Positions 18,921-27,093 of a DNA stretch of 64,000 nucleotides are shown in pieces. The DNA is taken from positions 3,575,001-3,639,000 of the forward strand of contig NZ_CP027668.1 of assembly GCF_003008515.1 (NCBI RefSeq), written 5' to 3'. Each line of letters opens with the position of its first letter. The stretch's first letter is position 1. The notes under the pieces are model-generated. The model saw nothing but the letters and a program-made list of their open reading frames with translations, was not told where the DNA came from and ran no database searches. This DNA is from Phreatobacter cathodiphilus. GTDB lineage: Bacteria > Pseudomonadota > Alphaproteobacteria > Rhizobiales > Phreatobacteraceae. The position numbers were made by a program, and so were the translations under genes.

Positions 18921-20981
18921 ATGCCGGACGCGGCGATCGCCTATATATCGCCCGTCATGATCCGCTCCGGCCGCACCAACATCGATCCCGACCTGCGCGA
19001 CCCCGAGGCCGCCGCCGCCGACGAGGCCGATGCTCCCGTCCTCGACCTCGCGGCGGAGGAGGAGGAGGCGCCTGCCGAGGGCACCGTCGCCGCCGGGATG
19101 GAGGTGATCAAGGCGGCGGTGAAACACGCGCCCAAGGGGCCCGGCGTCTACCGGATGATCGGCGCCAAGGGCGAGGTGCTCTATGTCGGCAAGGCGAAGT
19201 CCATCGCCAAGCGGGTGATCTCCTATGCCCGCCCCACCGGCCTCGTCACCCGCATCGCCCGCATGGTCGCCGCCACGACGGCGATGGAATTCGTCTCGAC
19301 CAAGACCGAGACCGAAGCGCTGCTGCTCGAGGCCAATCTCATCAAGCAGCTCCGCCCGCGCTTCAACGTGCTGATGCGGGACGACAAGTCCTTCCCCTAT
19401 ATCCTCATCACCGCCGACCACCCGGCGCCGCGCATCGCCAAGCACCGCGGCGCCCGCGTCGCCAAGGGCGACTATTTCGGCCCCTTCGCCTCGGCCTGGG
19501 CGGTGGGGCGCACCATCAACGCGCTGGAGCGCGCCTTCCTGGTGCGCTCCTGTTCCGACGCGGTCTTCGAGAGCCGCACGCGGCCCTGCCTGCTCTTCCA
19601 GATCAAGCGCTGCGCCGGTCCCTGCACCGGCGAGGTCGCCGCTCCCGACTACGAGGCGCTGGTGAAGGAGGCCAAGCTCTTCCTCTCCGGCCGCAGCCAG
19701 GCGGTGAAGCAGCTCCTCGCGCGCCAGATGGAGGAGGCGGCCGAGGCCATGGAGTTCGAGCGCGCCGCCGTCTATCGCGACCGCCTCGCCGCGCTCTCCG
19801 CCGTCCAGGCGACGCAGGGCATCAACCCCCGCGGCGTCGAGGAGGCCGACGTCTTCGCGGCCGTGCAGGAGGGGGGCCAGACCTGTATTCAGGTCTTCTT
19901 CTTCCGCACCGGCCAGAACTGGGGCAACCGCGCCTATTACCCCAAGGCCGACCGCTCGCTGGAGGCGGGGGAGGTGCTCGCCTCCTTCGTCGCCCAGTTC
20001 TACGACGACAAGCCGCCGCCCGGCCTGGTCCTGCTCTCCCACGAGGTGGAGGACCAGCCGGTTCTCGCCGACGCGCTCTCCGCCCTGGCGGGCCGCCGGG
20101 TGGAGGTGCAGGTGCCCCGCCGCGGCGAGAAGAAGGACCTCGTCGACCACGCCGCCCAGAACGCCCGCGAGGCGCTGGGCCGCCAGCTCGCCGAGAGCGC
20201 CTCGCAGCTCAAGCTCCTCCAGGGCCTCGCCGAGGCCTTCGGCCTGCCGGCCCCGCCCCGCCGCATCGAGGTCTACGACAACTCCCACATCATGGGCTCG
20301 AATGCCGTCGGCGGCATGATCGTCGCCGGCCCCGAGGGATTCCGCCGCCGCGACTACCGCACCTTCAACATCAAGTCGGACATCGCCCCCGGTGACGATT
20401 TCGGCATGATGCGCGAGGTGCTGGAGCGCCGCTTCAAGCGCCTCCTGAAGGACGCACCCCGCGCCGGCGAGCCCGCCGAAGGGGAGGTTGCTGCCGACAC
20501 CCCGGCGGAAGAGGCGGAGGCCGACGGCTCCTGGCCCGATCTCGTCATCATCGACGGCGGCCCCGGCCAGCTCGCCGCCGCCCGCGCCATTCTCGACCAT
20601 CTCGGCATCGCCGACGTGCCGCTCGTCGGCATCGCCAAGGGCCGCGACCGCGAGGCCGGCCGCGAGACCTTCCACATGACCGGCCGCGAACCCTTCCGCC
20701 TGGAGCCGCGCGATCCCGTGCTCTACTTCGTCCAGCGCCTGCGCGACGAGGCCCACCGCTTCGCCATCGGCACCCATCGCGGCCGCCGCAAGAAGGACAT
20801 CCGCTCCGCCGGCCTCGCCGAGATCGGCGGCATCGGTCCCGCTCGCAAGCGCGCCCTGCTCAACCATTTCGGCACGCTGAAGGCCATCGAGCGGGCGAGC
20901 CTGGAGGACCTTCAGCGCGCCCCCGGCATCAACGCCGCCACCGCCCAGGCGGTCTACAACTTCTTCCGGCCCCAGGGCTGA
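18921..20981 (+). CDS. uvrC: UvrABC system protein C
   Basis: This is the nucleotide-excision-repair endonuclease that cuts on both sides of a lesion marked by UvrAB. It is 686 residues with an acidic N-terminal extension of about 60 residues. The GIY-YIG domain starts [21 protein letters not shown] (residues about 74-94). [19 protein letters not shown] is the Cys-rich element, the UVR motif lies near [20 protein letters not shown], and the RNase-H-like nuclease includes [11 protein letters not shown] and IDGGPGQL. A helix-hairpin-helix pair ends the protein ([14 protein letters not shown]). The start could be 18921 or the Met at 18957; neither has a strong ribosome site. No SOS box was seen upstream. 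Confidence 0.96.
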
Positions 20982-23755: not shown

Positions 23756-24532
23756 GTGGAAGACATCGTCAGGCTCGCCGCAGATCCGACCGCCTGGGCC
23801 GCGCTCGCGACCCTCATCGCCATGGAGGTCATCCTCGGGATCGACAACCTCATCTTCATCTCGATCCTGACCAACAAGCTCCCCGAGGGGCAGCGCGAGA
23901 AGGCCCGCCGCATCGGCATCGGTCTCGCGCTCATCATGCGCCTGGCGCTCCTCGGCACCATCGCCATCATCGTCTCGCTGACCCAGCCGGTCTTCTCCGT
24001 GCTCGGCAAGGCCTTCTCCTGGCGCGACATCATCCTCATCGCCGGCGGCCTGTTCCTCTTGTGGAAGGCGACCAAGGAGATCCATCACAACGTCGACGCC
24101 AGCGGCGGGCACGAGGCCGACACCGGCGCGGTGGTCATCGCCAATTTCGGCTCAGCCATCGTGCAGATCATCCTGCTCGACATCGTCTTCTCGGTGGACT
24201 CGATCATCACCGCCGTCGGCATGACCGACGAGATCATCATCATGGTCATCGCCGTGGTGGTGGCCGTCACCGTCATGCTGCTCGCCGCCGATCCGCTGGC
24301 GAACTTCATCGAGGCCAACCCGACCATCGTCATGCTGGCGCTCGCCTTCCTCATGATGATCGGCATGACGCTGATCGCCGAGGGCTTCGGCGTGAAGGTG
24401 CCGAAGGGCTACATCTACGCCGCCATGGCCTTCTCGGCGCTGGTGGAGGGCCTCAACATGCTCTCGCGCCGGGCCGCCGTGCGAAAACGGGCGAAGGTGG
24501 AGGGCGAGCCGCGCATCCCCGTGCGCCGCTGA
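23756..24532 (+). CDS. TerC family integral membrane protein
   Basis: This 258-residue protein starts with GTG, preceded by AGGA about eight bases upstream. It has seven to eight membrane helices with the TerC signature of acidic residues inside helices: [16 protein letters not shown] near the start and [19 protein letters not shown] in the middle. The family is linked to tellurite resistance and, in several bacteria, to manganese or other metal export during protein secretion. No tellurite genes and no recognisable manganese riboswitch accompany it. A cytoplasmic basic tail ends the protein. Confidence 0.9.
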
Positions 24533-24542
24533 TCCCGGCTGC

Positions 24543-24935
24543 TCAGGAAACCACCATCGAGCGCCGGCCCGCCGCGGCTTCGGGCGCGGCGGTGCAGAGG
24601 TCGGCCTCGGCCGCCGCGCGGTCGGCCTCGCTCTCGGCGATGAGGTGGATGTGCACCTCGCCGGCCCGCTTCATCTGGGCGAGGCGCGCAAGGGCCGCGG
24701 GCGAAGCCGGCGAGCGGCCGGCCCACAGCGCCACGCGCGTGCCGTCGGGCTCGGCGCGGGCGAGGACGATGACGGCGCCCGGATAGGCGGGCGCGGTCGC
24801 AGCGGCATGGACGGTGGCGAGATAGCGCCGTCCCGAGACGCCGCGCCAGGTATGGAAGCGCGCGGCGAGGCCGGAGACCCTCAGCGCGGAGGGCGTGCCG
24901 GCGTCGAAAGCATGGATCGTTCGGCCTTTGTTCAT
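24543..24935 (-). CDS. Unrecognised 130-residue protein with an SOS-type promoter
   Basis: No family was recognised. The 130-residue product starts MNKGRTIHAFDAGTP. A first half rich in Arg, His and Tyr contains RFHTWRGVSGRRYLATVH, and a second half is Ala/Glu-rich with a repeated-alanine tail. No signal peptide or membrane segment is seen. The ATG is two bases after a GTTC-N7-GTTC box and twelve bases downstream of a good -10 sequence, so the mRNA is probably leaderless. It is convergent with terC. The likely role is in the DNA-damage response, but this rests only on the promoter. Confidence 0.7.
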   Translation of the reverse strand: MNKGRTIHAFDAGTPSALRVSGLAARFHTWRGVSGRRYLATVHAAATAPAYPGAVIVLARAEPDGTRVALWAGRSPASPAALARLAQMKRAGEVHIHLIAESEADRAAAEADLCTAAPEAAAGRRSMVVS

Positions 24936-24937
24936 TG

Positions 24938-24971
24938 GAACATTATGAGAACAAACCAGCGTTACGGTCAA
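24938..24971 (-). promoter_or_regulatory. Promoter with an alphaproteobacterial LexA box
   Basis: On the minus strand: -35 TTGACC (24966-24971), an 18-base spacer, and -10 CATAAT (24942-24947). GTTC-TCATAAT-GTTC (24938-24952), an exact match to the alphaproteobacterial SOS box GTTC-N7-GTTC, overlaps the -10. LexA bound here would block polymerase. The predicted transcription start falls at or next to the ATG at 24935. Confidence 0.75.
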
Positions 24972-25338
24972 TGCCGCCGGGGTTCGTCGCAGGGAGCTTG
25001 CTGACAGCGTTGTGGCAGGAGGGAGCGGGTTCCGACGCCGGTCGGAATCGCTCGCCCTGCATGAAGCCAGTGCGTCCTTCGAGGCTCGCCCTCCGGCTCG
25101 CACCTCAGGATGAGGAGGGTGGTGAACCGCACGTCGGTGGAAGGGCACGGGGCTCTCGCGTCATTCGGCCCCGGTGCCACTCACGACCCTCCTCATCCTG
25201 AGGTGCGAGCGGCGGCGATGCGTCAGCATCGTCCGGCGGCGAGCCTCGAAGGACGCACTGGCGTCATGCAGAGCACCCGGTCTGCCAGCGGCCGAGCCTC
25301 GAAGGACGCGCGTGGGGCGTGCAGGTCTCCGGTGCCCG
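24972..25338. repeat. Intergenic region with a long inverted repeat
   Basis: No gene is seen. Two inverted copies of a dispersed element face each other: arm segments 25066-25090 and 25238-25262 are exact reverse complements over 25 bases, and 25098-25120 pairs with 25187-25209 over 23 bases. A third partial copy (GAGCCTCGAAGGACGCG) lies at 25294-25310. Such elements are frequent in Hyphomicrobiales genomes and generate false peptides containing ASFEA or LRCE. Confidence 0.8.
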
Positions 25339-27093
25339 TCAGTGCCCCGCGGCCAGCGTGCCGCGCTGGCGCGTGTCCGCCGCCCCGGCCCAGCCGCCCG
25401 GCACCGCCACGATGGCGTTGACGTTGCCGAAGGCGCCGCGCGGCGCGATCCGGTGGCCGCGCCCCTCCAGCAGCCGGACCGTATCCGGCGACAGCCCGCC
25501 CTCCATGTCGATCGCATCCGGCAGCCACTGGTGGTGGATGCGCGGCGCCGCCACCGCCTCGGCGATGTTCATGCCGTGGTCGACCACGTTGAGGATGGTC
25601 TGCAGCGTGATGGTGATGATGCGGCTGCCCCCCGGCGAGCCCGTCACCATCGCCACCTTGCCGTCGCGGAACAGGATGGTCGGCGTCATCGAGGAGAGCG
25701 GCCGCTTGCCCGGCCCGGGGAGATTGGCGGCGCCCTGCACCAGACCGAAGGCGTTCACCGCCCCGGCCTTGGCGGCGAAGTCGTCCATCTCATTGTTGAG
25801 GAGGATGCCGGTGCCCTCGGCGACGAGGCCGAGGCCATAGGAGAAGTTGAGCGTATAGGTGTTGGAGACGGCGTTGCCGAACCGGTCGACCACCGAGAAA
25901 TGCGTCGTCTGCTCGCCTTCGTGCGGCGCCGGGTCGCCGGCGCGGATCTCGGCGGAGGGGCGCGCCCGCTCCGGGTCGATCCGCAGCCGAAGCTTCTGCG
26001 CATAGGCCTTGGCGATGAGTCCGCGCACCGGCACCGCGACGCTGTCGGGATCGCCGAGATGCTGCGCCCGGTCGGCATAGGCGAGTTTCATCGCCTCCAC
26101 CATGAGATGGATCGTCTCGGCGCTGTTGTGGCCGCGCCGCCCGAGCTCCATCGGCTCGAGCAGGTTCAGCATCTGCACCAGATGCACCCCGCCCGAGGAG
26201 GGCGGCGGCATGGAGGCCACGCCATAGCCCTTGTAGGTCCCGCGCACCGCCTCGCGGATCACCGGCCGGTAGGCCCGGAAATCCTCCAGGGTCATGATGC
26301 CGCCGTGGGCGGCGAGCGCCGCGACGATGCGCGCCGCCGTCGCGCCCTCGTAGAAGCCGGCCGGGCCCTGCTGGGCGATGGCCTCCAGCGAGCGGGCGAG
26401 ATCCTCCTGCACCAGCCGGTCGCCGCGGCCGGGGGCGCTGCCGTCGGCCTTGAGGAAGATGCGGCGCGACGAGGGAAAGCGCCCGAGCCGCGCCGCCGCG
26501 CGAGGCAGCGAATCCGCCAGGTCCTCGTCGACCGGAATGCCGTCCCGGGCGAGGCGGATGGCCGGCGCGATCAGTTCGGCGAGGCCGAGCCTGCCCGACC
26601 CCCAGCGGCGATGGGCCTCCGCCAATCCCGCCACGGTTCCCGGCACCCCGGCGGCGAGGCCGGAATCGCGGGACTTGCGCGGGTCCGGCTCGCCGTCGGC
26701 CCCCAGGAACATGGTCGGCGTCGCCGCCGCCGGTGCCGTCTCGCGGTAGTCGATGGCCACCGTCTCGCCCCGCTCGGCGAGATGCACCAGCATGAAGCCG
26801 CCGCCGCCGAGATTGCCGGCCCGCGGCAGGGTCACCGCCAGCGCGAAGCCCACCGCCACCGCCGCGTCCACCGCATTGCCGCCGCGCTCCAGGATCTCGA
26901 CGCCGACGCGGGTCGCCCGCGCCTCCTGGCTCGCCACCATGCCGTTCGCCGCCAGCGCCGGATGCACCCGCGCCGCCTCGGCGATGATCGGCCAAGCGGC
27001 CGGTGCAGCGGGCGGCGTCTGCGCCTGCCCGGCGGCGGGCGCCAGCGCCAGGAGCGCGGCGGCGACGAGGCGCCTCCCGTAAGCCATGTCCAT
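25339..27093 (-). CDS. ggt: Gamma-glutamyltransferase
   Basis: This periplasmic glutathione hydrolase/transpeptidase of about 584 residues has a signal peptide (about residues 1-26, ending GQAQ). It is a self-processing Ntn hydrolase. The nucleophilic threonine after autocleavage is in EGEQTTHFSVVDRFGN. The large subunit precedes it, with LPRAGNLGGGGFMLVH and SSGGVHLVQMLNLLEP. The small-subunit glycine loop MVTGSPGGSRIITI and PLSSMTPTILF are intact. Starts at 27093 or the nearby Met codons at 27096 and 27087 are possible. It lets the cell recover cysteine and glutamate from glutathione. Confidence 0.94.
   Translation of the reverse strand: MDMAYGRRLVAAALLALAPAAGQAQTPPAAPAAWPIIAEAARVHPALAANGMVASQEARATRVGVEILERGGNAVDAAVAVGFALAVTLPRAGNLGGGGFMLVHLAERGETVAIDYRETAPAAATPTMFLGADGEPDPRKSRDSGLAAGVPGTVAGLAEAHRRWGSGRLGLAELIAPAIRLARDGIPVDEDLADSLPRAAARLGRFPSSRRIFLKADGSAPGRGDRLVQEDLARSLEAIAQQGPAGFYEGATAARIVAALAAHGGIMTLEDFRAYRPVIREAVRGTYKGYGVASMPPPSSGGVHLVQMLNLLEPMELGRRGHNSAETIHLMVEAMKLAYADRAQHLGDPDSVAVPVRGLIAKAYAQKLRLRIDPERARPSAEIRAGDPAPHEGEQTTHFSVVDRFGNAVSNTYTLNFSYGLGLVAEGTGILLNNEMDDFAAKAGAVNAFGLVQGAANLPGPGKRPLSSMTPTILFRDGKVAMVTGSPGGSRIITITLQTILNVVDHGMNIAEAVAAPRIHHQWLPDAIDMEGGLSPDTVRLLEGRGHRIAPRGAFGNVNAIVAVPGGWAGAADTRQRGTLAAGH

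Follow-up and report, generated by a model that had tools for sequence, protein, structure and literature searches.

A putatively LexA-controlled, probably leaderless gene of the Hyphomicrobiales predicted to encode a GIY-YIG-derived protein devoid of the nuclease catalytic set

Cho, a UvrC-like GIY-YIG nuclease of Escherichia coli, is induced as part of the SOS response. According to the accessible portion of PMC1564403, Cho performs 3' incisions in repair and carries a C4-ChoCTD tail. In Alphaproteobacteria, the direct repeat GTTC-N7-GTTC is reported as the LexA motif, and the same motif is reported for Caulobacter, in the accessible portions of PMC8565304 and PMC12700426, respectively. Here, we scrutinized a stretch of 64,000 nucleotides from Phreatobacter cathodiphilus (contig NZ_CP027668.1, positions 3,575,001 to 3,639,000), hereafter the window, in which this repeat lies in the promoter of a small gene that the accessible portions of PMC8565304 and PMC12700426 do not name. 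Like Cho, the encoded protein appears to be a GIY-YIG-derived protein beside UvrC, and it is predicted to be under damage control. Unlike Cho, which has both a GIY-YIG domain and the C4/ChoCTD tail, it comprises only 130 aa, has lost the catalytic motif, and has no Pfam match.

The gene is located on the minus strand (24935..24543), with its ATG at 24935-24933 and its stop codon at 24543-24545. An exact GTTC-N7-GTTC repeat, GTTCTCATAATGTTC, occupies 24938-24952 on the same strand and represents the predicted LexA (SOS) box. A promoter scan identified a -10 hexamer, CATAAT (24942-24947), which the box overlaps, and a -35 hexamer, TTGACC (24966-24971), both on the minus strand and separated by an 18-nt spacer, with 10 of 12 bases matching the consensus. 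This was the single site returned across 24400-25400, against a mean of 0.0 in shuffled sequences. Hence, each element of the original prediction, which had placed an exact repeat over the -10 of a TTGACC/CATAAT promoter and the ATG about where transcription would start, was present at the correct coordinates, with 2 nt separating the end of the box from the ATG. The same frame remains open further upstream to a GTG (201 aa), and the ATG adjoining the box is the start conserved across the genus. Relative to the homologous locus L003, 12, 7, and 37 differences were found at codon positions 1, 2, and 3, respectively, a third-position bias as expected of a protein-coding frame. A second exact GTTC-N7-GTTC lies in the opposite orientation within the first codons (24919-24933, plus strand) and, among the 12 same-genus loci, is exact in the window and L002-L005 only. 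It may be a second operator, but more likely arose by coincidence within the coding sequence. No match to Rfam was found in the region 24000-26000.

The repeat by itself does not exceed chance within the window, where two copies were observed against 1.06 expected and at least two occurred in 28 of 100 shuffles. Significance from the motif alone was therefore rejected, and the box is significant because of its position and conservation. Across the whole genome (4,494,445 bases), 106 exact copies (57 + 49) were counted, compared with 23 for the backward-read pattern. The inner 7 bases of the window box ranked 20 among the 100 genome matches listed of the 106, using a matrix built from 76 boxes outside the genus and an assumed background of 68% G+C, and are not a strong match.

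To determine conservation of the box, we used homologous loci collected through protein similarity and not through the box. From 158 loci gathered, 7 repeating a genome were removed, 151 were scored, and 150 were matched (L158 was missed); the 141 loci with a core score of at least 50 formed the base for the box counts. In 88 of these 141 loci, a forward box was found no more than 220 nt ahead of the conserved core, whereas each of the other spacings, from 2 to 12, occurred in 0 to 6. In a control stretch 500-720 nt upstream, N7 occurred in 2 of 141 loci, but N8 in 12. One place in genome G342 was counted twice (L032 and L144), and by distinct core the boxed count is 87 of 140. Seven further loci had a reversed box only, and 46 had neither orientation within 220 nt. 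Among the 53 loci in which the forward box is absent, a search allowing one mismatch recovered 7 candidates versus 3 in the control stretch, and no clear hidden boxes. Of the nine loci below the cut, L146 and L155 have a forward box. Among 38 family labels, 23 have a forward box in one or more loci and 25 a box in either orientation, with reversed-only boxes confined to a single f15 locus and to label f42 (6/6 loci, among which one place was counted twice). In the genus of the window, all 12 loci carry the box. A set of 80 named loci, which overlaps the main genome sample, included 36 with a box, and one candidate scoring gave at least 8 of 385, at most 10 candidates per genome having been scored.

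The original prediction had taken the repeat to be the alphaproteobacterial LexA box, in agreement with the accessible portions of PMC8565304 and PMC12700426 and with its occurrence at lexA, recA, and ssb in this genome. Seventeen box sites were examined, chosen for AT-rich spacers among the 100 listed of 106. Genes near boxes that were identified with Pfam encode SSB, LexA (two boxes), RecA (reversed box), a ComM-type Mg-chelatase, a gyrase/topoisomerase IV subunit A, and an Lhr-type helicase. The boxed subunit A gene is presumably parC, and we take two further boxed genes, both returning no match in Pfam, to be imuA-like and SOS-peptidase-like from their sequences. Counting both orientations, a recA box was found in 19 of 30 genomes, against 0 to 3 at other spacings, and the figure for a single orientation was 5 of 30. 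In families f33 and f34, recA was boxed in 3/3 genomes each, yet the studied gene was boxless in every locus (0/8 and 0/10, respectively, within 220 nt), and hence seems to have dropped out of the regulon in these lineages. At L015 in f34, a reversed match rich in G+C was found at a distance of 276 nt. In f2, recA is also boxless (0/4 genomes tested: G012, G445, G512, and G669), so a boxless gene there is no evidence of lost SOS control. Judged from sequence conservation, it is very probable that the gene is under LexA control, and the best explanation of these patterns would be a nontextbook member of the Hyphomicrobiales LexA (SOS) regulon. Elsewhere in the sample, two small genes of 64 and 74 aa (L313:1270-1461, minus strand, and L307:2005-2226, plus strand, respectively) have AT-rich LexA-type boxes directly upstream. 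Their sequences are alike by eye and gave no match in Pfam, and they are possibly additional unnamed SOS genes.

With standard promoter spacing, a box in this position would overlie the -10, and the predicted start of transcription falls on or next to the ATG. This layout recurs among homologs: the ATG lies 1-2 nt past the box in 53 of the 88 boxed loci, and in 51 of these 53 a TTG[AC], the counterpart of the -35 in the window, starts 18-20 nt before the box, compared with 0 to 3 for five shifted controls. An operator over the -10 with the ATG at the predicted start was found in 14 family labels, and the mRNA is probably leaderless. In the remaining 35 boxed loci, an in-frame ATG was located 11-93 nt away, except for one in which none was found, and 19 of the 35 contain a Shine-Dalgarno-like tetramer. 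The box and the leaderless layout are both conserved upstream of homologs, then, as the original prediction had led us to expect. Leaderless messages are known in the same order, the accessible portions of the respective studies reporting 7% of messages in Methylorubrum extorquens, where leaderless was defined as a leader of 0-9 nt (PMC9320726), and 88 transcripts in Methylosinus sporium, where 92% of transcripts were leadered (PMC12403871).

We also considered the gene neighborhood. In 111 of 191 loci of the family (104 of 176 when counted by distinct core), the gene is preceded on its own strand by a plsC homolog, which was less than 700 nt away in 64 of 191 (58 of 176). A ydcF (DUF218) homolog often precedes plsC and, at the one locus annotated with Pfam (L173), an ABC-type ATPase and an unassigned ORF are followed by DUF218 and the acyltransferase. 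The recurrence of plsC and the order of the L173 cluster would fit an SOS-induced regulator of cell division or the envelope, functioning with the ABC-ATPase/DUF218/plsC cluster that precedes the gene in many families. However, the gene is equipped with a box and promoter of its own, a fold derived from GIY-YIG proteins suggests a link to DNA, and in the genus of the window the box is kept even though plsC is approximately 3 kb away; we give a division or envelope role very little credence. In the window, other genes separate plsC from the gene, and uvrC lies beyond plsC; TerC, quinone-oxidoreductase, and further names given to neighbors are our own reading. The uvrC gene (18921-20981, plus strand), which has a GIY-YIG match, is approximately 3.6 kb from the studied gene and is also nearby in other loci of the genus. 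Apart from plsC yet boxed throughout its genus, the gene is an independent unit. An operon with plsC was rejected as the main explanation, given the gene's own promoter and its separate position in this genus. Upstream of the gene, 25054-25325 contains a dispersed inverted-repeat element with arms CTCATCCTGAGGTGCGAGC, often paired approximately 75-110 nt apart. Genome-wide, 84 matches were recorded at up to 2 mismatches, against 0 for the control. The core of this element is also present at the locus in the closest relative (L002/L159) and absent from L003-L005, and it looks like a mobile or REP-type repeat.

The window protein had no match in Pfam, NCBIfam, PHROGs, or PADLOC, the first two bearing out its initial description as an unrecognized 130-residue protein. 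Likewise, tblastn against annotated phage records returned no match, and the best hit of the family profile to PDB sequences had an E value of only 0.51. One of 55 other family members matched phrog_7274 (E 0.0018). Homologs were found in 39 of 61 genomes, its own included, and in 12/12 of the genus. When a homolog (L014) was used as the query, 140 of 297 genomes of the order had a match, a single one in 139 of the 140, whereas the relative from Ensifer retrieved 7 of 289 class genomes, of which that of the window and one more belong to the same order. Five relatives on IMG/VR predicted viral contigs (L363-L367) were degenerate by eye and had no box in 350 nt. A search of open-licence titles and abstract openings on LexA, SOS, GIY-YIG, and Alphaproteobacteria returned no description of the gene among the entries listed.

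Direct comparison of the family with GIY-YIG proteins using hhalign was not significant (E 0.48 and 0.25), and intermediates were therefore sought. A relative encoded on a Bradyrhizobium barranii plasmid (WP_231146028.1) is annotated as a 'GIY-YIG nuclease family protein', and the Ensifer adhaerens relative (L219) carries the same complete motif. These small GIY-YIG nucleases resemble the window protein over approximately 100 residues as members of the same family and share its W-G-SG hairpin and E-x-H-x-H strand, but keep the motif residues Y, Y, G, R, H, E, and N, of which the window protein has only G and E. After adding second copies and distant members, the nuclease-like set comprised eleven proteins, in whose alignment Y33, G50, R58, H66, G76, E95, and N107 (L360 numbering) are invariant; in the wider alignment, they keep six or seven of the seven positions. 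Pfam GIY-YIG was detected in these relatives only below the cut-off (best E 0.0062 and 0.0029). The family profile A5, from which nuclease-like members were excluded, aligned with three nuclease-like relatives at E 1.5e-28 and with all eleven at E 7.3e-25. These relatives in turn aligned with GIY-YIG proteins of the order, UvrC included, at E 4.4e-7 and 5.3e-6 over approximately 30 columns. Significant through intermediates only, this chain makes descent from GIY-YIG proteins highly likely.

In the predicted structure of the window protein (pLDDT 84, pTM 0.77), an extra hairpin precedes elements arranged in the order of a GIY-YIG domain. This N-terminal hairpin, residues 27-44 (24804-24857, minus strand), bears a W-x-G-x-S-G-x-R-Y signature, and it is followed by a degenerate GIY-YIG-like core, residues 53-118 (24582-24779, minus strand), delimited by the model and the profile chain, with the predicted order strand, strand, helix, strand with E-x-H-x-H, and helix. 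The best structural match of the window model was 2lwf (Z 5.8, rmsd 5.3 over 86 residues), and other GIY-YIG entries, at Z 3.0-3.5, were tied with the unrelated synapsin (3.4) and CRP (3.3). For the Ensifer relative (pLDDT 81.7, pTM 0.71), nine entries scored from Z 7.8 to 5.0, ahead of the next at Z 4.0, and these included 2lwf (Z 7.8), UvrC 1ycz (Z 7.1, rmsd 2.3 over 73), 1yd6 (Z 6.1), and R.Eco29kI (Z 5.3). Four of the nine (1ycz, 1yd6, 3nic, and 3mx4) have GIY-YIG in their titles; we take 2lwf to be a GIY-YIG domain and, presumably, T4 EndoII and three 5hmC endonuclease entries among the nine are also GIY-YIG proteins. Foldseek returned nothing under E 0.001 for either model, the first match of the Ensifer model again being 2lwf (E 0.17). 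Since all Z values are below 8, the putative GIY-YIG fold rests on the pattern of matches and the sequence chain together.

On the conjugative Bradyrhizobium barranii plasmid pCC829_3 (L239), the complete member is located among transposase, integrase, and group II intron genes, a hint of mobile origin. At L356-L362 and L106, we also found small GIY-YIG proteins that have a similar hairpin at the N terminus and whose active site is complete or nearly so. Up to 350 nt upstream of such relatives, GTTC-N7-GTTC occurs in forward orientation at L106 and reversed at L356, L359, and L360, and the relatives at L356-L362 and L106 may be SOS-controlled, too. Matches to PDC-S14, a candidate defence model of PADLOC, extended across 32-57 residues around the GIY-YIG motif in three nuclease-like relatives, namely P0002 (L219:3614-4024; E 8e-6), L360:857-1219 (E 4e-4), and L106:2447-2809 (E 0.0045). 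These matches may merely reflect the shared motif, and a defence origin of the nuclease-like relatives is possible.

Among 195 distinct cores, derived from 219 rows in which some proteins stood twice (4 and 215 by row), all seven catalytic-motif positions were found in 4 and four or fewer in 191, with none having five or six. The window protein reads I/W/G/A/gap/E/A at these positions, and so the active-site tyrosines, arginine, histidine, and asparagine are lost and the GIY-YIG catalytic set is incomplete. Loss of GIY-YIG catalysis is strongly indicated by these substitutions, and the window protein should not cut DNA via this mechanism. Of the 87 distinct boxed cores, 86 have four or fewer positions and one, L106, keeps all seven; hence, SOS control is not always paired with catalytic loss. 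Despite this erosion of the motif, other residues are retained across the 195 cores, both in the hairpin (W30 in 190, G32 in 193, and S34 in 183) and in the core (E93 in 178, H95 in 181, H97 in 182, and D112 in 193), and the hairpin W, S, and G are nearly invariant in the nuclease-like relatives as well. Taken with the coding-type evolution of the gene, this retention suggests that something besides GIY-YIG cutting is under selection.

One candidate for that selected function is catalysis of another kind, whereby the fold was kept and an active site moved to W30, R37, Y38, E93, H95, H97, and D112, giving a divergent SOS-induced nuclease or DNA-modifying enzyme. Retention such as that of G32 and D112 (193/195 each) seems beyond the needs of a bare scaffold, and the E-x-H-x-H strand could bind metal. 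However, three members whose GIY-YIG active site is complete (P0001, P0002, and L300) have this strand as well, and it may therefore serve folding or DNA binding in both groups, which leaves a relocated active site unlikely in our assessment. Loss of catalysis in an otherwise conserved fold would also suit a decoy or inhibitor that occupies the DNA of active GIY-YIG enzymes, such as UvrC or nucleases of invading or mobile elements, and thereby shields forks or repair intermediates during SOS. In four genomes (L356, L357, L358, and L106), a degenerate copy indeed coexists with a complete GIY-YIG relative. The link to UvrC, however, consists only of the approximately 3.6 kb proximity in the window, and a shared substrate is hypothetical; we regard a decoy as quite improbable.

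Overall, we lean toward a gene that is repressed by LexA, is probably leaderless, and encodes a GIY-YIG-derived pseudonuclease, which would bind DNA or a partner in repair. In an undamaged cell, LexA would occupy the box covering the -10 and the promoter would be off. Upon damage, LexA would be cleaved, allowing synthesis of an mRNA starting at or beside the ATG, and this leaderless message would then be translated. The product would be a noncutting descendant of a small GIY-YIG endonuclease whose active site is lost, and its retained fold, W-G-SG-RY hairpin, and E-H-H strand would most likely provide for binding, either to damaged or branched DNA or to a repair protein. Among the roles first put forward for the gene, a nuclease helper or repair accessory fits best because the protein is GIY-YIG-derived and its catalytic set is lost, whereas the only hint of a division inhibitor came from the gene neighborhood. 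We give roughly even chances to the more specific proposal that the product is a noncatalytic repair accessory. More speculatively, and with considerable doubt on our part, a large part of the order may have converted a mobile, plasmid-borne type of GIY-YIG nuclease into a chromosomal, noncutting SOS protein, losing catalysis while fixing a binding surface (W-G-SG-RY and E-H-H) and, in many families, a leaderless LexA promoter.

These data extend the likely SOS regulon of a large order of bacteria by a conserved gene without a Pfam or NCBIfam family, and give it a testable identity, a nuclease fold minus the nuclease residues. Its promoter would also provide a clean model of leaderless, LexA-controlled expression. 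If the order did make the conversion suggested above, the product would act as a 'blunt' nuclease, induced by damage to mark or shield DNA structures, and SOS effectors of this kind were not described in the open-licence literature searched. SOS-controlled GIY-YIG proteins are expected to cut, and one that does not would indicate a structural or protective role in repair.
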